DNA of 29,436 bases, from IMG/VR virus record IMGVR_UViG_3300000545_000003, positions 1-29,436 of that record. One strand, written 5' to 3'. The translations under genes were made by a program, and so were the position numbers. The notes beneath the pieces are model-generated. The model was given only the letters and a program-made list of their open reading frames with translations. It was not told the origin of the DNA and did no database searches. Origin of the DNA: a virus. Below are positions 11,863-23,600 of this stretch, piece by piece (positions within the stretch are counted from its first letter, which is position 1; every line of letters begins with the position of its first letter).

Positions 11863-12261
11863 TCAATTTGTCTGTCGATTTGTCGAATCGGCTTCGATTG
11901 AGCCACTTTCGAACCCTTTGATTGCGCAATCTTGGGCGATAGTTGCGAGCTTTCGCATGGCTTCCAACATGTTGCGCAACGCCTTGATATGGGAAGCTTC
12001 CGCATTCGGTAGCCTTTCCAAATCGCGTAACATAAAGCCGAGGCATTCAGTTTGCCTTGTTACGCATTGATAAAGCATCGGCGCCGTTGCCAATAGCCTA
12101 GAAAATTCTGTAGGCGGAGCAACACGCAAACCGAATACCATAAGTGGATACTGTTCTGCAATCGCAATGTGCTTAGAAGTAGCATACACATTGCCATCCT
12201 CATCTACAGTCATATTCATAGCCTCGATTTGCTCATGCGTCAGAAAGTCTTTATCAGTCAT
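11863..12261 (-). CDS. Hypothetical early protein
   Basis: A 132-residue protein with AAAGG eight bases before the ATG. The middle contains RLLATAPMLYQCVTRQTECL, similar in style to a common phage accessory pattern in which a short 'ATAPELL' helix is followed by a helical hairpin. The C-terminal half is helical (IKALRNMLEAMRKLATIAQD). No enzymatic motif is seen. The gene lies between a small membrane protein and the two-domain protein, separated from the latter by 83 nt. Confidence 0.6.
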   Translation of the reverse strand: MTDKDFLTHEQIEAMNMTVDEDGNVYATSKHIAIAEQYPLMVFGLRVAPPTEFSRLLATAPMLYQCVTRQTECLGFMLRDLERLPNAEASHIKALRNMLEAMRKLATIAQDCAIKGFESGSIEADSTNRQTN

Positions 12262-12273
12262 TCCAATAGCCTT

Positions 12274-14262: not shown

Positions 14263-14745
14263 CACTGCATTTGACTAGATTTGAGTCGTTACGAGACGCG
14301 TGACCCCCAAACTCCCATTCCTTTAGTACCTGATAAAATCGATTTCAGCCCTGCTAAGGCCCCTGTTTCGGCGCATAGCCAGGAACATTCATCCTTATAC
14401 AAGAAAATCGCAGACTGCGCAGCCTCTGTGCGTCTCTAAGAGGCGATTCGAAGTCGACCTAGGTCTACCTAGCCACCCTACCTCTAGCGGGCAACCTGGG
14501 GCAACGTCGTAAGAGCGCGAGGCATGTCTAGAGCTATCTGGCGCTCTATAGGGGTCGAAGGTGGTTCTCGAATCACTCTTTTGAGCTGTTTTCAGCTCTT
14601 TCCCCCTAATAATACCTGTAAGATTATGCCCACAATAGCTGGATGTATTTGTCTCGACTTCAGCCCTTTTCCCTCGGTTTCTCGTTAGAAAGTAACGTAG
14701 TGTAGTTAGTTAGTAGTAGTAGTTAGTTTTATTTAAGAGAGGGGA

Positions 14746-14809
14746 ATAAATATATTGGGGGGTGAATATTAAGGGGTGGTTATCCCAATATATTTATCTC
14801 TATTTTTTT
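14746..14809 (+). repeat. 14-bp perfect inverted repeat with T-tract
   Basis: Arms ATAAATATATTGGG (14746-14759) and its complement (14784-14797) flank a 24-base G-rich loop; 14803-14809 is a run of seven Ts. As RNA on the plus strand it resembles a terminator, but no plus-strand gene precedes it. As DNA it is an AT-rich cruciform or unwinding candidate at the point where strand composition flips. Confidence 0.75.
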
Positions 14810-14998
14810 AGACACTTTGATTTACCCTATTCACCCTCCTAAACCTCCAAACCTACTTTTTTCTACTACCTACAAAAAACCCACCCTTTTGTGGGCAAAA
14901 AGCCCCCTTCTCAAAAGAGCATGAGCCAACTAATCGGTCTACATTCCCCCCACATAAACCTACACCACTCACCTAAACTTACATCATCCGACCTTCCC

Positions 14999-15028
14999 AT
15001 ATATCAACATATATCAACATATATCACC
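14999..15028 (+). repeat. Three tandem 10-bp repeats
   Basis: ATATATCAAC, ATATATCAAC, ATATATCACC in direct tandem. The 10-bp unit puts successive copies on the same face of the helix, as with iterons bound by a replication initiator. The surrounding 100 bases are almost free of G. Confidence 0.75.
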
Positions 15029-15277
15029 TCACCTATATGTGGGGATACGCACATTTATCTCCATTTATTACCATATATAAACCGACCTATATAACATCAT
15101 CTTACAGGCTAGTTTCCGGGGTACTTTTACACAGAATCGGCCTAAATGTGCAGGATTCGGCGATTCTCTCGAGTTTTCTCGACTCTAATCAAGTCTGAAT
15201 GTAGGTCACACTATATCTGACCGTAACTCGAAACGCCCGGAGACCCCCCGACCTTCCGCTTTTTAGACCGATTTCAA

Positions 15278-15981
15278 GCTAAAATAAATGCTTGATAAAT
15301 ATGTTTGGGGGTGTTCAGATGCCGATTTTCACTTGACCTAAACCCAAACGCGATTACTTACTCGCTTTCATCCCCTAACAATATGTGTGGGCACCTGTCG
15401 TTTTCGCCAATTCTAAGCTGAAATAAATGCCTGAAAAATACCAAACCCTAGACTTAGGGGGCTTTGACAAGCGTTGTGTGTAAGTGCAACTGTAAGCCTG
15501 AGCGCTTGAGTGAATGTCTGAAACGTTTCGTTTTCGCGCTTTCGACCGATTTTCAGCCGTTTTCATGACCTTTTCACGCAAAATCGATGGGTGTAGGCTC
15601 GATTTTGCGGGCTCAGCTTCATTTGGTCATAACTCAAGTTGTCTATAATCTTTCGCGCTTCCCCCTAAGATTTCAGGTTTTAGCCCGTTTTCTAGGGAAA
15701 ACCGCGGCTTTCTGCCAAACCCCCAAACAACCTAGGCCAACCTATTCAAAGGCCCTCAACCGTAACGGTGAGCCAATATGTGGGCAACCAATCTAAACGC
15801 CACTCAAAGCCCGGTAGGGGCCTTAGCAGGGCCGTTTTAGCCTGTTTCTCGGGCAAAAGGTCGGGTTTTAGGGCCTTTGAGCTCGTTTGAACGTAAGCCC
15901 GATTGACCCGCTATCCCCCGATAGCCTGGCTTTTGCCTCGATTTTAGGCTAAAATAAATGGTTTGGAAAATAGTTAGGGGG
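15278..15981 (+). repeat. Three dispersed AT-rich / G-run elements
   Basis: GCTAAAATAAATG at 15278-15290 and 15948-15960, and GCTGAAATAAATG at 15417-15429. Each is followed by a G-run (TTTGGGGG at 15304, TTAGGGGG at 15454 and at 15974). Start-to-start distance from element to G-run is 26 bases in the first and third copies and 37 in the second. The sequence before each is also related (CGATTTYAAG-like). They could be promoters (TAAAAT as a -10) or initiator boxes. Confidence 0.7.
15577..15609. repeat. 11-bp perfect inverted repeat
   Basis: CGCAAAATCGA (15577-15587) pairs with 15599-15609 across an 11-base loop. There is no T-tract on either side. It could be an operator or a structured RNA element within the noncoding region. 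Confidence 0.7.
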
Positions 15982-16224
15982 TTCAATCTCGCCTTGACTG
16001 AAACCCACACAAACAGTTTCCGCACCCGACTGCTAGGGCGAGTAAGTAGGCTTCGTTTTCTACGCAAAAATCGACCTTTGCAGCCTACTATCCGCGCCGA
16101 GCCTCTAGACAACACAAAGCCCCACTGATTCACGTGGAATCATGGGGCGATTGTAACTAACTCGACTTTATCAGCTGACTTTGATGAAGTGAGTCTCTAC
16201 TTAAAGTCACACTTCTAAATCAGT

Positions 16225-16270
16225 TGCTTTAATGTAAAGCACCTGCTTTAAATGTAAAGCACCTGCTTTA
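16225..16270. promoter_or_regulatory. Operator-like array, 2.5 copies
   Basis: Two palindromes, TGCTTTA-ATG-TAAAGCA (16225-16241) and the same with one extra A (16244-16261), are followed by a third half-site TGCTTTA (16264-16270), spaced 19-20 bases apart. Adjacent palindromes on the same helical face are typical of cooperative repressor binding. The binding protein is unknown. Confidence 0.65.
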
Positions 16271-16336
16271 GCATACTGATATTTGACTCAGTTACCGCTC
16301 GAAGCCGGTTGCTGATAGCTATTTTGATACCTAAAC

Positions 16337-16360
16337 AGGGGGCCGCATTTGCAGCCCCCT
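16337..16360 (-). terminator. Hairpin after the last cassette gene
   Basis: AGGGGGC (16337-16343) pairs with GCCCCCT (16354-16360) across a 10-base loop, starting seven bases after the stop of the 16368 gene. On the minus strand it is followed only by GTTTAGG, so termination would be weak. A second bulged hairpin lies at about 16119-16146. Confidence 0.5.
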
Positions 16361-16367
16361 AGAAGTC

Positions 16368-16592
16368 TCAGCGATTGCTGTCGAGGTAGAACCCAGTGCG
16401 CTTGTTATCCGCCCGTTCTAGCCTCGCCTGACGCAAGCAGCGGGCTAGCACGCGAGCCATCGGCTCATCCGAATAGCCGCGAACAGCCGCGAGCCAACGG
16501 ACACACTCCCCATTCTCGTAAACAGACACACACGCAAAGTTGGTTATCCAAGTTGCGTTTGTCTCAGTGTCCAGATTGATTCGAATAACCAT
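16368..16592 (-). CDS. Hypothetical small early protein
   Basis: A 74-residue protein (MVIRINLDTETNATWITNF...), with GAGG seven bases before the start. It has its own copy of the recurring promoter cassette (16631-16659) with a leader of about 30 bases. The C-terminal half is a basic helix (ARVLARCLRQARLERADNKR). It is the last gene before the noncoding region. Function unknown. Confidence 0.65.
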   Translation of the reverse strand: MVIRINLDTETNATWITNFACVSVYENGECVRWLAAVRGYSDEPMARVLARCLRQARLERADNKRTGFYLDSNR

Positions 16593-16630: not shown

Positions 16631-16659
16631 GTTATGTGCCGATTTGACTAGCCGGTCAA
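16631..16659 (-). promoter_or_regulatory. Promoter cassette for the 16592 gene
   Basis: On the minus strand TTGACC (16659-16654), a 17-base spacer and CATAAC (16636-16631). The -35 lies in an inverted repeat TTGAC-N6-GTCAA (16644-16659). It is followed by the shared leader string CCAACTTGTCGGTTGG. Confidence 0.75.
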
Positions 16660-16688
16660 GCAAGTCATTCAAATAATCGACAAAACGA

Positions 16689-16847
16689 GTGAGCGCTCAC
16701 ATTCCAGACCCCAGGTATCAGGGGGAAGCCAGGGCTAGCTTCGATTCCTGGGGCTGTACGCCATCCTAGCGGCCGATAGGGGCCAGGGCTAGGTCAGTAT
16801 GGGCGAGGGCGTTTGCGGGCAACTGGAGCCAACGTCGCGAGCCTGTT
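16689..16847. other. GC-rich intergenic element with palindrome
   Basis: Contains the perfect 12-bp palindrome GTGAGCGCTCAC (16689-16700), CCCCAGG/CCTGGGG arms (16709-16715 with 16747-16753) and the string GCTAGGTC also found at 10.6 kb. At 16815-16838 there is a 24-base segment matching 14487-14510 at 19 of 24 positions. No gene is seen. It lies between the stop of the 16848 gene and the next cassette promoter. Confidence 0.45.
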
Positions 16848-17045
16848 TCAGGGCTCTAGCGACTGGGTTGGCTCAGTTGCTTCCAGTATCTCAACAATCG
16901 TGTGCAAGCATTGCGTCAATATATGCACGTGTGAACTAAGCCGGCCAATTTCAGTTGAATCCCCATATGGGTCATAAGCATCGATGGTGACGATTCTATC
17001 GCTAGCTGACTTAAGTGCTTCGAATATTTGCTTACGTTGGCTCAT
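16848..17045 (-). CDS. Hypothetical small protein
   Basis: A 65-residue mostly helical protein (MSQRKQIFEALKSASDRIV..., HVHILTQCLHTIVEILEA). Its ATG directly follows the preceding stop (TGA-ATG), so the two are probably co-translated. It is the third gene of a three-gene unit driven by the cassette promoter at 17537-17565. Function unknown. Confidence 0.6.
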   Translation of the reverse strand: MSQRKQIFEALKSASDRIVTIDAYDPYGDSTEIGRLSSHVHILTQCLHTIVEILEATEPTQSLEP

Positions 17046-17276
17046 TCACCATACCTCTAGACGTTGCTGATTGAAGACAAACGACTTGCGACCGTAGCGC
17101 TTGGCCAATCGAAGTAGACGAGCGTAGATAGTGGCTGGCGCATCGGCTGCAGTGGGAGTCCACCCAACCAATGGGTGAGTAAACCAAATGCTGCCGTCCT
17201 CAGCTTCAAATAGGCCGCATTCGATTGGTTGAAGTCCTTTACGTATTGGCATGTTTTGTGTCCCTTCACTTGTCAT
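17046..17276 (-). CDS. Hypothetical small protein
   Basis: A 76-residue protein with a possible small beta domain followed by a basic C-terminal helix: GLFEAEDGSIWFTHPLVGW, then ATIYARLLRLAKRYGRKSF. The start at 17276 overlaps the upstream gene by 11 bases; an ATG at 17252 preceded by AAGGGA is a reasonable alternative. Function unknown. Confidence 0.6.
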   Translation of the reverse strand: MTSEGTQNMPIRKGLQPIECGLFEAEDGSIWFTHPLVGWTPTAADAPATIYARLLRLAKRYGRKSFVFNQQRLEVW

Positions 17277-17529
17277 TGAAGCCTAGCTCAGAATAAGACC
17301 ACATGAGTTTGCCATCAATTAGGCGCTGCAATCTGTTTTGTGCCAGCCTTACGTTGCGATATTGCTCGGCCGCAAGCCCTTGCGTGTAAGTTGTCAGATA
17401 GCCTTCACTGTACAGCTTACGAGCATGGGCATATGCCCTAGATGCGAGTTCTTGCTCTCTGATAAGATGTTTGTGGGCATTTGCAAGGTCTATCTTGTAT
17501 GCCCGAAACCGTTGTTGTTTGCTTCGCAT
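17266..17529 (-). CDS. Hypothetical basic helical protein, possibly leaderless
   Basis: An 87-residue basic helical protein (MRSKQQRFRAYKIDLANAHKHL..., ARKLYSEGYLTTYTQGLAAEQYRNVRLAQNRLQRLIDG). There is no Shine-Dalgarno before the ATG. The -10 of its cassette promoter (TAGATA, 17542-17537) ends seven bases before the ATG, so transcription should start at or next to the start codon. It heads a three-gene unit. A nucleic-acid-binding role would suit the charge but is not shown. Confidence 0.62.
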   Translation of the reverse strand: MRSKQQRFRAYKIDLANAHKHLIREQELASRAYAHARKLYSEGYLTTYTQGLAAEQYRNVRLAQNRLQRLIDGKLMWSYSELGFNDK

Positions 17530-17536
17530 GAGTTAC

Positions 17537-17565
17537 TATCTAGCTGAGTCAAATAAGCTAGTCAA
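17537..17565 (-). promoter_or_regulatory. Promoter cassette with three AGTCAA repeats
   Basis: On the minus strand TTGACT (17565-17560), 17-base spacer, TAGATA (17542-17537). Two more TTGACT copies flank it at 17547-17552 and 17569-17574, in place of the inverted repeat seen in other copies. The shared string CAATCAACTATT lies at 17572-17583. Confidence 0.65.
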
Positions 17566-17578
17566 GTAAGTCAATCAA

Positions 17579-17908
17579 CTATTTCGATTTTAGATTGGCA
17601 AGTGTTTGCGCTCGAATCGAATGTGCAGCAGGGCTCATATGCCAGGCAAGGCTAACACCTTGAAGGTAGCCGCGAGAATGGACCGCGTCGATGCAACCTT
17701 CAACGATAACCCCATTTTGAAGCCTACGGTGGGGTGCTGCCGCTGGATGGCCACATGTGGTGCAGGTGTCAGCGACGGGGCAAGTGAAGCCGCGAGCGCG
17801 CAAGGATGCCTCAGCTTGGGCTTGAATCTCAAGGATTGCAGCCGATACTTTGGCTTGCGTTTTAGCTGACACTTTACGCATGGGTTTGAGTGTTGAGTAA
17901 ATATTCAT
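17579..17908 (-). CDS. Hypothetical Cys/His protein
   Basis: 109 residues from the ATG at 17908, chosen over 17929 because AAGGAACG lies just upstream of it. The N-terminal half is helical. The middle has CPVADTCTTCGHPAAAPH and a later EGCIDAVH, a cluster of Cys and His that could bind zinc. The end is helical (MSPAAHSIRAQTLANLKSK). It has its own cassette promoter (17941-17969). Function unknown. Confidence 0.62.
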   Translation of the reverse strand: MNIYSTLKPMRKVSAKTQAKVSAAILEIQAQAEASLRARGFTCPVADTCTTCGHPAAAPHRRLQNGVIVEGCIDAVHSRGYLQGVSLAWHMSPAAHSIRAQTLANLKSK

Positions 17909-17940
17909 TGCTTCGTTCCTTTGCTGCAATCGACAAGTTG

Positions 17941-17976
17941 GTTATGGGCTAGTTTGACTGTGCAGTCAACTAGCCC
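17941..17976 (-). promoter_or_regulatory. Promoter cassette for the 17908 gene
   Basis: On the minus strand TTGACT (17969-17964), 17-base spacer, CATAAC (17946-17941). The -35 lies in TTGACTGTGCAGTCAA (17954-17969), extended by GGGCTAG/CTAGCCC arms (17946-17952 with 17970-17976) into a nearly perfect 31-base palindrome. It is followed by CCAACTTGTCG. Confidence 0.75.
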
Positions 17977-17988
17977 AATCAACTATTT

Positions 17989-18237
17989 TCAATATTCGCT
18001 ATCTTCGAGTTTAAGCACGTCATTCCAAGACATTTTGCAAGTGCTCAATACCCAAAGGCCGTTAAAATCAGCCGCAATATGCTTTTTTGGCCATGCTGCA
18101 AAGGCAACATGGCAGTCAACTGGCATTATCACGTTAGGGTGAAATCCGCCATTGAGTAACCACTCGCGCAATGATTCAACATGTTCGCTAATCATGTGGC
18201 CACAAAGAATCGAGTTGAGTGCTGCTTTTGAGTCCAT
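17989..18237 (-). CDS. Hypothetical small early protein
   Basis: An 82-residue protein (MDSKAALNSILCGHMISEHV...) with AAGGA nine bases upstream. The centre is GGFHPNVIMPVDCHVAFAAWPKKH and the end acidic (LKLEDSEY). It has its own cassette promoter (18269-18296). I recognise no family. Small size, single-gene unit and early-type promoter suggest a host-takeover or accessory role, which is inference only. Confidence 0.62.
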   Translation of the reverse strand: MDSKAALNSILCGHMISEHVESLREWLLNGGFHPNVIMPVDCHVAFAAWPKKHIAADFNGLWVLSTCKMSWNDVLKLEDSEY

Positions 18238-18268
18238 GCTTCAATTCCTTTTCTCAGTCAACAAAACG

Positions 18269-18303
18269 AATATAGGCCGATTAACTGTGTAGTCAATCGG
18301 CCT
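18269..18303 (-). promoter_or_regulatory. Promoter cassette for the 18237 gene
   Basis: On the minus strand TTGACT (18296-18291), 16-base spacer, TATATT (18274-18269). AGGCCGATT/AATCGGCCT arms (18274-18282 with 18295-18303) surround the -35. This copy lacks the CCAACTTGTCG leader string. Confidence 0.7.
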
Positions 18304-18330
18304 AATCAACTATTCGCTCAAAGCGAGCAA

Positions 18331-18648
18331 TCAACCGTTATGTTGCTGCCAAACGATACGGGCGCCTTCAAGTGCGGCGCCAGTCAAAAAGGATTCAGCA
18401 AACGAGCCAACTACGTCCATTTCGGTCACTTCGACGGGGCAACGCTTTACAAGTTTCCAAGTGCGAATATAAAGGCCGCGCTCATTGCGGCTATTTGCCG
18501 TGGCGGTAGGAATGATGCGACCGCATTCAATGTGCCAACCATCGCTAGGGTGTTCAATGTGTCCATTGGCACAAAGGATGCCAACAACTTTGGCATTGCC
18601 GTAAAAACCTTCAACCAAATCGCCCAAGCGTGCATGTTCGTTAGTCAT
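18331..18648 (-). CDS. Hypothetical small early protein
   Basis: 105 residues from the ATG at 18648, chosen for AAGGAAG eight bases upstream; an earlier in-frame ATG at 18684 lies within the leader. The N-terminal half looks like a small beta-barrel (ARLGDLVEGFYGNAKVVGIL, HPSDGWHIECGRIIPT). The C-terminal half is helical (MDVVGSFAESFLTGAALEGARIVW). It has its own cassette promoter. No function recognised. Confidence 0.65.
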   Translation of the reverse strand: MTNEHARLGDLVEGFYGNAKVVGILCANGHIEHPSDGWHIECGRIIPTATANSRNERGLYIRTWKLVKRCPVEVTEMDVVGSFAESFLTGAALEGARIVWQQHNG

Positions 18649-18688
18649 CTTGTTTGCTTCCTTATTTGTTTGCCCAACCGACAAATTG

Positions 18689-18717
18689 GTTATGCAACGG
18701 TTTGACTAAGCGGTCAA
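18689..18717 (-). promoter_or_regulatory. Promoter cassette for the 18648 gene
   Basis: On the minus strand TTGACC (18717-18712), 17-base spacer, CATAAC (18694-18689), with TTGACTAAGCGGTCAA at 18702-18717 and the following leader string CCAATTTGTCGGTTGG. CAATCAACTATT lies at 18724-18735, overlapping the upstream gene's stop. Confidence 0.75.
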
Positions 18718-18730
18718 GCGATACAATCAA

Positions 18731-18994
18731 CTATTTGATTAAAGCGAGCCATTGCTCAAGCTCGTTAGCAATTTCATTCAAATTGCTATGCGGATTTACT
18801 ACAGCACGAAACCATCCCTCTGGAAGTATACCATTTGGCACAAAAGCAGTATCACCGATATGAATCGTCCAACGGTCCGCATTGCAGTGAAGGTATACCG
18901 CAACGGCTTGCCTTTCTTGCTTGGCATAACTCAATGCAGGCTTCAACGCATACACTAGTTCAGCTTGCGTCACTGAGATTTTGTTCGTTTCCAT
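18731..18994 (-). CDS. Hypothetical small protein, possibly leaderless
   Basis: An 87-residue protein (METNKISVTQAELVYALKPAL...). The middle is beta-like (VAVYLHCNADRWTIHIGDTAFV) and the end helical (LNEIANELEQWLALIK). The -10 of its cassette promoter (TAAAAC, 19006-19001) ends six bases before the ATG, so the mRNA would start at the start codon. Function unknown. Confidence 0.62.
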   Translation of the reverse strand: METNKISVTQAELVYALKPALSYAKQERQAVAVYLHCNADRWTIHIGDTAFVPNGILPEGWFRAVVNPHSNLNEIANELEQWLALIK

Positions 18995-19000
18995 AGGTCC

Positions 19001-19029
19001 GTTTTATGTTGATTTGAATACACAGTCAA
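19001..19029 (-). promoter_or_regulatory. Promoter cassette for the 18994 gene
   Basis: On the minus strand TTGACT (19029-19024), 17-base spacer, TAAAAC (19006-19001). The half-sites read TTGAC-N6-TTCAA. There is no CCAACTTGTCG leader string in this copy. Confidence 0.65.
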
Positions 19030-19074
19030 GCAATCCAATCAACAAATCGACAAATGCGAACAATCAATCAATTG

Positions 19075-19148
19075 AATCCCATAACTTTCGGTGTCAGCCT
19101 CAGATTGCGTTCAATCCCCTAACTTTCGTTTTAATCCCCTAACTTTCG
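19075..19148. repeat. Three 16-bp direct repeats
   Basis: AATCCCCTAACTTTCG at 19113-19128 and 19133-19148, with one mismatch (AATCCCATAACTTTCG) at 19075-19090. Start-to-start spacings are 38 and 20 bases. They lie in the gap between the 19184 gene and the first promoter cassette. The core CCCCTAA also recurs in the 14-16 kb noncoding region. They may be binding sites for a regulator or initiator. Confidence 0.75.
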
Positions 19149-19501: not shown

Positions 19502-19524
19502 AATCCGCCTAGCCAACTGATCAA

Positions 19525-19683
19525 CTATTTCGTAATACGACTAATTGCTTGCTGAATCCACTCATGCAATCGAGCCAAGTCAACACTATTCATTGATTCA
19601 ATGTTCCACCAAATATCCGGCAAATCTGCATTCTTGACAGCAGTACGAATATCTCTAATCAACCGTTGTTTATAGCTTAACAT
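19525..19683 (-). CDS. Small hypothetical protein, 52 residues
   Basis: The ATG at 19683 opens a frame for MLSYKQRLIRDIRTAVKNAD... ending in LHEWIQQAISRITK. It is a basic, helical protein that fills the gap between the nucleotidyltransferase and the 19501 gene, 10 bases after the former's stop. There is no strong Shine-Dalgarno (GAAGA is 14 bases upstream). It ends at the shared string before the next gene. Real but unassigned; it could be a partner of the nucleotidyltransferase. Confidence 0.5.
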   Translation of the reverse strand: MLSYKQRLIRDIRTAVKNADLPDIWWNIESMNSVDLARLHEWIQQAISRITK

Positions 19684-19693
19684 AATCATTTAT

Positions 19694-20233
19694 TCATTCT
19701 TCGATGCGAGCTTGACGTACAACGCACTTCCATTTATCAGACAACCTAGGTGCAGTATTATCTAGATATTCCTGGATTTGCTCAATATCAATTGAACCGA
19801 TTTTTAATAGTTCAATCAAATCGGCGATATCTTTCTGTCGATTCGCTTTCAATTTTAGGTGAACTAGCGTGGGCATGCTCACGACTTGCAAATATTCGCT
19901 ATCCTTATAGCGCTTTAGCACTTCACGCTCGAATGCAGGTGTATCAGCATCGGTTGCCTCGAATGCCAGCATGTCCACCTTGACTTTCCCGATACTGATA
20001 ATCGGTACACGTAAGAGCACAAAGCCGCTAGCATTCTTTATGAACGCAGTATCAGTTACGAGAAAGTCAACATCCGAAGTAGTGCGCACATAGCCATGCG
20101 CGCCAACGGCCAATCCTCCGATTAGCACGTGCGCAATGTTATGTGCGCGCAGCGCTTCCGATGCTCTCAACATTGCGTCAATAACTTCACTTGCGACGAT
20201 ACCGTCAAGTTTCTCTAGACTTGGATTTGTCAT
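19694..20233 (-). CDS. Nucleotidyltransferase (MNT / AbiEii-like fold)
   Basis: A 179-residue protein of the polymerase-beta-like nucleotidyltransferase superfamily. The motif IGGLAVGAHGYVRTTSDVDFLV gives GG (39-40) and the catalytic pair D54 and D56; the third acid is probably D87 in KVKVDMLAF. The helical C terminus (residues about 120-170) is of the stand-alone minimal type. Members add a nucleotide to a protein or RNA, or act in toxin-antitoxin and abortive infection systems. Here it is coupled (ATGA) to a zinc-ribbon gene behind the primase. Its substrate is unknown. Confidence 0.78.
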   Translation of the reverse strand: MTNPSLEKLDGIVASEVIDAMLRASEALRAHNIAHVLIGGLAVGAHGYVRTTSDVDFLVTDTAFIKNASGFVLLRVPIISIGKVKVDMLAFEATDADTPAFEREVLKRYKDSEYLQVVSMPTLVHLKLKANRQKDIADLIELLKIGSIDIEQIQEYLDNTAPRLSDKWKCVVRQARIEE

Positions 20234-20429: not shown

Positions 20430-23027
20430 TTATTCCAGAATACGCGCGTTCTCAACCGCATATCCCATTTGTCCAGTACCGTGCGCTTTCAACATTTCTA
20501 GTGTATTGATTTTGGATATGTCACCATTGTCACACAGAATGTCAATTGCCCTCTTGATTGCTTTGCTAGCGCCTATCTTGTCATTCTTGAATGCAGCTAG
20601 GTTATGAAGCCTATTGCTAAGGTATGCGTATGGGATGATTTTTGCCTCGTGCAGTTTGGCACCATAAGAGCCTGTAGTGTTTGCCGCAACATCTTGCCAG
20701 TTGCCCACAATCCAGCGCTTGATAGCGGCCTTCACTGAAATAACTTGCTTCGTTTCATCCGTTTCAACTTGCCCGATATCACCAGCTGTAAATCGAGTCT
20801 GCATATTGTGGGCATCCGCACTAGCGGCCGCTATCGCCCAAGTTGCCATTGACTCGGTTATGATTGGACTAACAAAGTTAACACCCACTGCGACTAGCGC
20901 GGCTAGACGCAATGCTTTGAAGTGCGTTCGGCTCCATAGCTCCAATTCAACGTCGCGCAAATCTTCCAAGTTCTGTTTCGCGTCAATGAAGCCGCTGAAG
21001 TCCTTCATTAGACGATATGCGGTATCGTCTAACTTGACTTCAATGCGTTGATTAGACTTGCTAAGTGCTAAGCAATGGGCAGCCAATGTGGCAAGCGATT
21101 GAATGAGTGCATTGTCTGGATACACCTTAGCACAATGTTCATTCAATGGCGGTTTCTTACCCTTGTAATCAAGAATCATGAAACGTGGAATCAAACCCTC
21201 AGATACAACGTTTTCGCTCAATACGTTATAGAACTTGGTAGGGGTAGACTCGCCAATGAACGTCAAGGCTGGCGATTGAATGTCTGAAGTATTGCGCTCT
21301 ACATGGCTGTATGCTGAACTTCTAAGCACCTGATTAGGTCCAGACAAGTTATACAGGTCTAGCAATGTCCTAAATATGCCTTGCATATTATTGCTGCTGC
21401 TATTGCCTTTTCTGCCAGACATCTCAAGATATTGGCCAAACTCTTTACTGACTACTACAAAGCTTTTGGTATTGCTGCTAGCCATGTATCGCAATAGCCC
21501 TTGCGATGACGCCGCATCACCGAACCCTGCAAACTCGGATGCCGCAGGGACACTCTCACATATTACATTGATTAGTTTTGAAATACCACTAGCTAACGCT
21601 TCCTTACCGTTGCCAGTCTTAGCCAGTATCACACCATACATGTTCAGCCCTGTATTTGATATGGTGTAAGAACGGCCAGAAATACCAGCCATTAATCCGA
21701 TTGCACCCATGAGTGCAACTTCCGCAATAGGCCGTGGGGATGATTTGTAAATGTACGTTGCAATATCGCCTATCAGTCCTTCGGGAAACTGATATGCAGG
21801 ATTAGTATACAGTACAGGCTGGTTTAGATAATCGTAAGAATGCTTAACGTCGCTTATGCTGACTAGACTACCATTTGGATTTACATAATGAGCATAGCCA
21901 TTGACGTGAGCATGACCGTTGACGTGCTCATTCGAGCTCGCCACGGCGCCTACAGCGGCCGTAGGCTGCAATCGGTTGGCGAGGTTAGGCAACCCTGGCC
22001 ATTGCCCGCTGACGGCTAGCACGCGCTGGCGTTCGGCTTCGCGATCGCGGTCAAGCCGCGCGGCTTGCTTAGCCTCGACATCTAACCGCTGTAGCTCACG
22101 CTGACGCTCGATTTCCGCGGCTTGTTCAAGCGCTAGCCTTTCCGCGGCTTGTTCTTGTTCTTCCCTGAGTTGAGCTACCAGCGCTTGTGTTTGATTGTAA
22201 ATCGCATCTAGATTGATTGGTGGTGGTAACCTATCAAACGCACGATTTAGCATCCAACCTACATAGTCCTTTCGCTTAGCCTTTGGACGCTTGCCCAAAT
22301 AACTAGTGCGAAACATACGCACGATTTGCTCTTTGCTTTGTGTGTAGTAAGCCAGGATATCAATCAGTGCAAAGTCGGCTTCACTTTGTGACTGATATAA
22401 GCCTTGCCATACACCTTTGAATAGTAAATCGTACTTCTCACCATTAGATGCACGCAACGCCATAGCGTGCACTTCATTGTCGCTATAGGACGCTTCAGAA
22501 TCGCCAGTGTAACATTCAATTACACCGTTGCTTTTACCAAGGTGTCCCCATAGCGATTCTAAAGCTTGCCCACAATCTACAATCGGCTTATTCCAGTGAA
22601 CGTTGCCCGTCATAGTCATATATCGTAGTGATGAATACACTTCGACTTTATGGCGACGTCTGCCGGATGGCACATTACCCTTTACGATAATGTGCAAACC
22701 CTTACCGCTTGGGCTTATCTCAGCATAGCTATTGAATGTTGTGCATACCTGTTGCTGCAGTATGCGTGCAGTTGCATCACCGTTAGCATAGTCCAAATCG
22801 ATGAATGCATAATCGTCTGATTCGGTTAGTACAAACCCTATGCCTGATAAGTCACTTCGTTTTGAAGCTGCAACGCATTGCTCGAATGTTGCCCAAGTGT
22901 CAGGCTTATTGACCGATGCAAAGTGACCCGTATGAACATTGATTGGATGTTTAACACCATTTTCGTCTCGCCAAACAACCCATTGCGCGAGCCTACGTAG
23001 CTCTAGCGGTATGGATTCAAAACCCAT
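20430..23027 (-). CDS. Primase-polymerase / DUF3987 helicase
   Basis: About 865 residues from the ATG at 23027, overlapping the HTH stop by 11 bases. The N-terminal domain is a primase-polymerase of the archaeo-eukaryotic type: IPLELRRLAQWVVW (6-19), FIDLD with D77 and D79, SPSGKGLHI with H112, and KVEVYSSLRYMTMTGN with E129. A helical linker region follows (SQSEADFALIDILAYYTQS), then a coiled coil (about 280-335), an odd repeat (HVNGHAHVNGYAHYVN, 368-383), and the DUF3987 helicase with Walker A AKTGNGKEAL (469-478). It should prime and unwind phage DNA. Confidence 0.85.
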   Translation of the reverse strand: MGFESIPLELRRLAQWVVWRDENGVKHPINVHTGHFASVNKPDTWATFEQCVAASKRSDLSGIGFVLTESDDYAFIDLDYANGDATARILQQQVCTTFNSYAEISPSGKGLHIIVKGNVPSGRRRHKVEVYSSLRYMTMTGNVHWNKPIVDCGQALESLWGHLGKSNGVIECYTGDSEASYSDNEVHAMALRASNGEKYDLLFKGVWQGLYQSQSEADFALIDILAYYTQSKEQIVRMFRTSYLGKRPKAKRKDYVGWMLNRAFDRLPPPINLDAIYNQTQALVAQLREEQEQAAERLALEQAAEIERQRELQRLDVEAKQAARLDRDREAERQRVLAVSGQWPGLPNLANRLQPTAAVGAVASSNEHVNGHAHVNGYAHYVNPNGSLVSISDVKHSYDYLNQPVLYTNPAYQFPEGLIGDIATYIYKSSPRPIAEVALMGAIGLMAGISGRSYTISNTGLNMYGVILAKTGNGKEALASGISKLINVICESVPAASEFAGFGDAASSQGLLRYMASSNTKSFVVVSKEFGQYLEMSGRKGNSSSNNMQGIFRTLLDLYNLSGPNQVLRSSAYSHVERNTSDIQSPALTFIGESTPTKFYNVLSENVVSEGLIPRFMILDYKGKKPPLNEHCAKVYPDNALIQSLATLAAHCLALSKSNQRIEVKLDDTAYRLMKDFSGFIDAKQNLEDLRDVELELWSRTHFKALRLAALVAVGVNFVSPIITESMATWAIAAASADAHNMQTRFTAGDIGQVETDETKQVISVKAAIKRWIVGNWQDVAANTTGSYGAKLHEAKIIPYAYLSNRLHNLAAFKNDKIGASKAIKRAIDILCDNGDISKINTLEMLKAHGTGQMGYAVENARILE

Positions 23028-23211
23028 GCTTTCGCAAACCTTCGTCAAGGATGTTGTAGCGCGATACTGTCATATCGGTTGCTATACCGTTAGCAATCTC
23101 TCTTATAGTTTGTCGATTGACTCCTAACTCGCGCTCCATTTGTACGAAGCTCCACTCATATTTCCCTTTTGCCAAGTTTATCCGCAATGCTAGATGTTTC
23201 ATGTCAATCAC
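23017..23211 (-). CDS. Cro/CI-like HTH regulator
   Basis: 64 residues from a GTG at 23211, preferred over the ATG at 23202 because GGGAGG lies eight bases upstream. The centre is a helix-turn-helix (SFVQMERELGVNRQTIREIANG, about residues 21-42) of the XRE type; no oligomerisation or protease domain is present. It heads the primase operon and diverges from the plus-strand recombination operon, the usual position for an early switch regulator. It may bind the ATAC/GTAT or TTGAC/GTCAA sites nearby (inference). Confidence 0.75.
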   Translation of the reverse strand: MIDMKHLALRINLAKGKYEWSFVQMERELGVNRQTIREIANGIATDMTVSRYNILDEGLRKHGF

Positions 23212-23600
23212 TCGCTTTACCTCCCAACGTGGGCATGAGTGGCCCCAAACCCGAACATGAGCGCCACACTAGCACCGCATAAATGAAGCTTGCAATCTTT
23301 TCTTGCAGCCTCTACAGTCCAAAACTCGCCAGCGCTAAATGGGTCTTTTTTGACCCGAATCCGGTCAAAAGCGATAGCTCGTCAGGTTTGCTTGAAATGT
23401 AGACAAATGCGCGAAACCAGCGTACAACTTACTTTCACATACCGTATCCGCAACTCCACACAAACACTGCAAAAGTTGGCTTTTACAATACGGGTATTGC
23501 GAAAATAAAATGCCTGCAAAGTCGGATTGTGTTTGACTTGCGATTTGTGGTTGCGCTATGCAGGGGGCTAGAAAACATCATTCCGTTTTGAGAGCAGCAA
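23212..23600. promoter_or_regulatory. Divergent control region
   Basis: Carries the outward promoters of the HTH-primase operon (minus) and the recombination operon (plus). TTTTGACC/GGTCAAAA (23348-23355 with 23363-23370) and GGGTC/GACCC (23341-23345 with 23352-23356) are two stems that cannot form together. Short palindromes ATAC-C-GTAT (23439-23447) and ATAC-GG-GTAT (23488-23497) are operator candidates. I find no convincing minus-strand sigma-70 pair. Confidence 0.55.
23482..23511 (+). promoter_or_regulatory. Candidate early promoter, plus strand
   Basis: TTTACA (23482-23487), 18-base spacer, TAAAAT (23506-23511). The spacer contains the palindrome ATACGGGTAT, which could let a repressor block it. 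A weaker alternative is TTGACT (23533) with TATGCA (23557-23562). Confidence 0.5.

Follow-up and report, generated by a model that had tools for sequence, protein, structure and literature searches.

Repeated promoter-like cassettes in the accessory region of a siphophage genome fragment and gene swapping at equivalent slots of Septimatrevirus phages

An array of six promoter-like cassettes, mostly one per small gene, was found on the minus strand of the virus record IMGVR_UViG_3300000545_000003, which was analysed in its entirety (label G000; 29,436 bases; hereafter the window). The six units keep a constant geometry and are confined to the accessory block, and at the equivalent cassettes of Septimatrevirus phages the genes behind the promoters have been swapped. 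We consider it probable that the array is made up of early-promoter cassettes particular to this lineage, set in the accessory region of a lytic siphophage, and that genes are swapped by recombination between cassettes. The strongest new evidence comes from the relatives and not from the window.

The terminase of the window shares 62-76% identity with those of Septimatrevirus and Kilunavirus phages (Pseudomonas phage 73, Burkholderia phage KL1 and Escherichia coli phage FtMidnight). Its gene order is also that of these ~43-kb relatives: small helix-turn-helix (HTH) gene, primase, small-gene block, lysis, terminase and head genes, with the replication genes of window and relatives alike on the opposite strand. 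Judged from these features, the window comes from the ~43-kb genome of a lytic siphophage akin to both genera and lacks ~14 kb of it, with the tail and polymerase genes. The array occupies the accessory region downstream of the primase, which is the hypervariable block of the family.

Six cassettes of constant geometry

All six minus-strand promoter sites proposed in an earlier sequence-only reading of the window are present at the coordinates given there. They have in common, at constant spacing, the motif AATAGTTGATTG-N6-TTGACY-N4-RGTCAA; aligned on TTGAC, they read A(A/T)TAGTTGATTG, N6, TTGACY, N4, RGTCAA(A), 6-7 free bases and an AT-rich hexamer. A 38-column matrix was built from five sites and used to score the sixth, with both strands of the window and shuffled sequences as controls. 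The held-out sites reached 21-42 bits, every other position on either strand scored lower, and the maxima of the shuffles were 5-12 bits. The six sites thus stand out in the scan; all of them directly precede small minus-strand open reading frames (ORFs), and the 29.4-kb contig has no others. With one mismatch allowed, the pattern TTGATTG-N6-TTGAC gave eight matches that include all six sites (0.25 expected), and TTGACY-N4-RGTCAA gave five of the sites and no others (0.29 expected). Conservation is mosaic: pairwise identity is 84% in the AATAGTTGATTG block, 100% in TTGAC and ~64-67% in RGTCAAA, and falls to 28-38% in the bases between and around these blocks (chance 25%). Such fixed spacing across diverged gaps argues for selection on discrete elements rather than for fresh duplication.

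After each site a small ORF on the same strand follows within 6-40 nt, and the earlier assignment of genes is borne out, five sites preceding a single small ORF and the one at 17537-17565 preceding three. The same reading had the AATAGTTGATTG block overlapping or adjoining the upstream stop in most units; this is the case at three of the six. The spacer between -35 and -10 measures 17 bp in five sites and 16 bp in cassette C. CATAAC occurs in three copies, as had been noted, and these are the three units with a follow-on element, CAAYTTGTCGRTTG; the other hexamers are TATATT, TAGATA and TAAAAC. In cassettes E and A (17537 and 19001) the predicted transcription start falls at, or adjoins, the A of the ATG, so those two mRNAs would be leaderless. 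An inverted repeat built on TTGAC-N6 had also been described, and a dyad with 6-bp arms is indeed carried by five sites and lacking in E, but the repeats of cassettes C and D are much longer than described, with arms of 14 and 13 bp found in these two only. The outer hairpin parts of C and D differ in their letters, yet are complementary within each site. A long outer dyad joining the elements CAATCAACTATT and CCAACTTGTCGGTTGG of the earlier reading was dropped, being weak per site (P 0.006-0.77).

The exact motif is absent from the viral_contigs collection and from 19 relatives. Looser patterns gave only single matches in unrelated viral contigs and, in genomes, only two Chitinophagaceae contigs, and these near-empty searches argue against any wider regulon. 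Viral contig searches and 50,697 phage records yielded no near relative with the array, and a primase query found no IMG/VR relative. As for the small genes of the array, none reached the cut-off of a Pfam family or matched a PHROG significantly, PADLOC gave no convincing match, and there was no homologue among 11 related genomes or fragments.

Promoter slots in Septimatrevirus relatives

Do the genes behind such cassettes change places? In the same accessory region, Septimatrevirus phages carry a repeated cassette of their own, AAAG-TTCGTCG-N6-TTGACG-N4-TTCGAA, followed by a -10 (for example TATATT or TAGAAT) and a shared leader, which makes three to four near-identical promoter-leader slots per phage. 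Among 11 Septimatrevirus phages scanned, slots 1, 3 and 4 occur in all and slot 2 in five. Nine unrelated gene families were found in slot 1 and five in slot 3, and slot 4 always holds one gene. Moreover, three gene families (94-100% identical) are each found in two different slots: the MNVTNLKTAVE family (100%) in slot 1 of Ab26 and S3 and slot 3 of GZ35 and Kakheti25, the MTYAEAKK family (96%) in slot 1 of UF_RH5 and slot 3 of Kopi, and the MNALNNIQ family (94-98.5%) in slot 2 of five phages and slot 1 of DoCa11. In DoCa11 the slot-1 core is followed by the spacer, -10, leader and gene of slot 2, so that the switch lies inside the promoter, and this phage looks like a recombinant within it. 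Because one slot holds different genes in different phages and one gene can turn up in different slots, comparison of these genomes demonstrates gene exchange at the Septimatrevirus cassettes. Immediately upstream of slots 1 and 2 there is a GC-rich hairpin with a T-tract, that is, an intrinsic terminator.

The Septimatrevirus slots and the window cassettes share region and orientation, TTGAC promoters, one small gene or short run per unit, and a block at equal distance upstream (TTCGTCG-N6-TTGACG in Septimatrevirus, TTGATTG-N6-TTGACY in the window). They differ in their letters, in number (three to four against six) and in the -10s, which are strong in Septimatrevirus, for instance TATATT; moreover, no slot immediately follows the primase in the window, unlike in Septimatrevirus. 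Homology between the two cassettes is suggestive only; the upstream block is similar at equal spacing, and the rest has diverged. In the literature we found no description of such cassettes for Septimatrevirus or its relatives; most subscription papers lay outside the search, and hence this is not proof.

A distant relative (G008, L030) has its own repeated promoter pair on the minus strand (12220-12265 and 14838-14883), with a hairpin in the spacer (TAGCAC/GTGCTA) that is again lineage-specific. Repeated palindromes as a general mark of the relatives' promoters failed, their counts being not above shuffles. The record of phage PSV3 (L022, NC_069755.1) needs care: many of its genes are broken, and its perfect 121-bp tandem duplications at 39771-40012 and 42915-43156 resemble artefacts of assembly.

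The features of the window are collected in Table 1. Within the accessory block, a minus-strand gene at 19694-20233 has weak matches to nucleotidyltransferase DUF6036 and AbiEii models and is possibly toxin- or defence-like. Just upstream of the first cassette, at 19075-19148, AATCCCCTAACTTTCG occurs in three direct copies (0.17 expected), with a fragment near 15370; these copies are iteron-like. The stretch 14266-16367 (~2 kb) has no convincing ORF and no Rfam match; it carries short tandem repeats at 14998-15026 and 16225-16270 and many recurrences of the words TTTTAGCC/CTAAAAT, and is possibly an origin or another cis region.

Table 1. Cassettes, associated ORFs and reference features of the window
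Feature	Position	Strand	Remarks
Cassette F	16631..16678	-	TTATTTGAATG, -35 TTGACC, arm AGTCAA, -10-like CATAAC, then CAACTTGTCGGTTGG; leave-one-out 36.2 bits
Cassette E	17537..17584	-	AATAGTTGATTG, TTGACT, TAGATA; right dyad arm absent; before three ORFs; leave-one-out 21.4 bits
Cassette D	17941..17988	-	AATAGTTGATTG, TTGACT-N4-AGTCAA in 13-bp-arm hairpin (GGGCTAGTTGACT / AGTCAAACTAGCCC), CATAAC, then CAACTTGTCGATTG
Cassette C	18269..18315	-	AATAGTTGATTA, TTGACT-N4-AGTTAA in 14-bp-arm hairpin, TATATT; terminator-like
Cassette B	18689..18736	-	AATAGTTGATTG, TTGACC-N4-AGTCAA, CATAAC, then CAATTTGTCGGTTGG; leave-one-out 42.3 bits
Cassette A	19001..19048	-	ATTTGTTGATTG, TTGACT-N4-ATTCAA, TAAAAC; leave-one-out 32.4 bits
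ORF behind cassette F	16368..16592	-	74 amino acids
Three ORFs behind cassette E	16848..17529 (17266-17529, 17046-17276, 16848-17045)	-	small
ORF behind cassette D	17579..17902	-	107 amino acids; no tblastn match in 50,697 phage records
ORF behind cassette C	17989..18237	-	82 amino acids
ORF behind cassette B	18331..18648	-	105 amino acids; no match in 50,697 phage records
ORF behind cassette A	18731..18994	-	87 amino acids; no match in 50,697 phage records
Lone upstream block AATAGTTGAT	19520..19529	-	overlaps stop of ORF 19525-19689; no promoter or dyad
Primase/helicase	20430..23048	-	anchor placing the array in the accessory region of the family
Small HTH protein, phrog_13059	23017..23202	-	candidate regulator of the sequence-only reading

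Proposed mechanism and alternative explanations

In the mechanism that we propose, host sigma-70 RNA polymerase would begin transcribing from each TTGACY-N16/17-(C/T)ATAAY-like site shortly after the DNA has entered the cell, and each cassette would thereby express one small accessory gene or a short run. The likeness of the cassettes, together with a Sak4-type annealing protein, a single-stranded DNA-binding protein (SSB) and an exonuclease encoded in the backbone, would allow homologous recombination between cassettes, by which genes could be inserted, lost or swapped, each retaining its promoter and start site. The recombination genes of the window match SSB and exonuclease families and the Sak4 homologue of the relatives. 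The TTGATTG block, 13 bp upstream, and the RGTCAA arm in the spacer would probably be bound by one common factor that sets timing or shut-off. What we infer is that the sites are active promoters, that they act early, that a factor binds them and that recombination takes place in the lineage of the window. The modular, swappable cassettes of the sequence-only reading are thus upheld as repeated promoter-like units in a hypervariable block, and as regards swapping in Septimatrevirus. That the window cassettes work like the Septimatrevirus slots, and are likely swappable too, is suggested by their same place, orientation and one-gene layout and by a similar upstream block at the same distance. 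We entertain as possible, though rather doubtful, a stronger version in which the cassettes form a regulon as well as recombination sockets: a phage or host factor would read TTGATTG and TTGACY-N4-RGTCAA and switch the accessory set together, and each lineage would have rewritten all copies in concert with that factor.

Several results weigh against early-promoter cassettes open to recombination. A strict sigma-70 scan passes cassette C alone of the six sites, and CATAAC, in which both T positions of TATAAT are missing, makes a weak -10. The likeness to the Septimatrevirus cassette is no more than suggestive: when TTGAC is masked, the upstream blocks of the six sites rank 1, 4, 5, 6, 9 and 29 among 139 TTGAC occurrences. 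Neither a regulator of the array nor a relative near enough to show a swap in the lineage of the window was found.

The main rival, to which we give rather little credence, holds that these are ordinary host-type early promoters that have no dedicated regulator and are kept alike by gene conversion, the palindrome being incidental. The failure to find a regulator fits this explanation, and so do the spacer letters of the relatives, which differ and do not form the same dyad; by a rough estimate, the chance of matching the right arm at some spacing for a fixed TTGAC is ~5%. However, the cassettes are conserved in patches and not uniformly, the gaps having diverged while keeping their length, and two sites extend the dyad with flanks that are different and mutually complementary. 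Those two hairpins lead to an RNA-level explanation, in which the dyads between genes would work chiefly in read-through transcripts, forming hairpins that serve as terminators or processing sites and separate the small genes, as in the promoter early stem-loop (PeSL) cassettes of T4-type phages. As RNA, cassettes C and D form much stronger folds than shuffles do (z-scores -5.2 and -4.8), cassette C is terminator-like, and true terminators adjoin the promoter in relatives. The other four sites, however, fold like shuffles (z-scores -0.6 to -1.4), most sites have no T-tract, and a hairpin needs no conserved TTGAC at promoter spacing. We regard this explanation as improbable.

Could the HTH protein at 23017-23202, the regulator that the sequence-only reading had put forward, control the array as a repressor/operator regulon? 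Throughout the family the primase operon begins with a small, conserved HTH gene, and the recognition helix differs (NRQTIREI in the window versus SHELIRKL) as the window motif likewise differs from that of phage 73. Nevertheless, the HTH gene has no cassette-like site, whether in the window or in relatives, and the TTGACC/GGTCAA pair at 23350-23369, proposed as a link, is mis-spaced (19 versus 16 bp across, the half-sites 3 bp further apart) and has no motif score. In addition, DoCa1, QH3 and the relative G006 have a different, unrelated HTH protein and recognition helix, yet carry cassettes like those of phage 73; the 73-like matrix was built with DoCa1 and G006 sites among others and without QH3. 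In a lytic family, moreover, a lysogeny repressor would be unlikely. Altogether we regard this regulon as highly improbable. The HTH locus before the primase is occupied in the family by two unrelated-looking small HTH proteins, a 73/KL1 type (L021/L023) and a QH3/DoCa1 type (L043/L046), which amounts to a replacement within a single phage family.

Significance and relation to known systems

The fast-changing small early genes of lytic phages often act on the host, and how such genes come and go while regulation stays intact is little understood outside T4. In the cultivated and well-sampled family of Pseudomonas, Stenotrophomonas and Xanthomonas phages studied here, promoter slots resemble sockets, one of them holding nine different genes across 11 relatives. 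The slots offer a route to new host-takeover or counter-defence genes by position alone, and the mechanism is testable in the laboratory.

The closest known systems are the PeSL cassettes of T4-type phages and the ESAS of cluster K mycobacteriophages. According to the work cited in PMC4503421 (Arbiol et al. 2010; Comeau et al. 2014), accessory genes are shuffled by way of PeSLs, promoter/stem-loop cassettes present in repeated copies. On that account, the likeness lies in copies of one promoter between accessory ORFs (six predicted promoters in the window, three to four slots in relatives) and in the terminator-promoter composite layout of Septimatrevirus slots 1 and 2. Shuffling between relatives is seen at the Septimatrevirus slots. 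PeSLs, as described there, belong to T4-type phages, whereas the window falls in a 43-kb siphophage family and is not a T4-type myovirus genome. The PeSL stem-loop precedes the promoter, whereas that of the window overlaps the -35 and spacer and is a strong stem in only two of six sites; no stem-loop terminator lies directly upstream of a window promoter, the stem of the terminator-like cassette C overlapping its promoter.

The ESAS, of ~46 bp, occur in several copies between genes, and each contains an inverted repeat and -35/-10 hexamers separated by 17-18 bp (Pope et al. 2011, PMC3203893; Adephagia 2024, PMC11373665). Their repeats are imperfect, 15-17 bp long with a spacer, whereas the window dyad is 6+6 bp with N4; they often come with a 13-bp SAS, GGGATAGGAGCCC, near the start codon, which is not seen in the six window leaders; and they belong to temperate actinobacterial phages, whereas the window family is lytic. 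The array resembles both systems and lacks a defining feature of each. The window hexamers lie within the ESAS range in five sites and near it in the sixth, and the ESAS, whose regulator is unknown, likewise stand before small accessory genes and differ in their repeat letters between subclusters (PMC3203893; PMC11373665).

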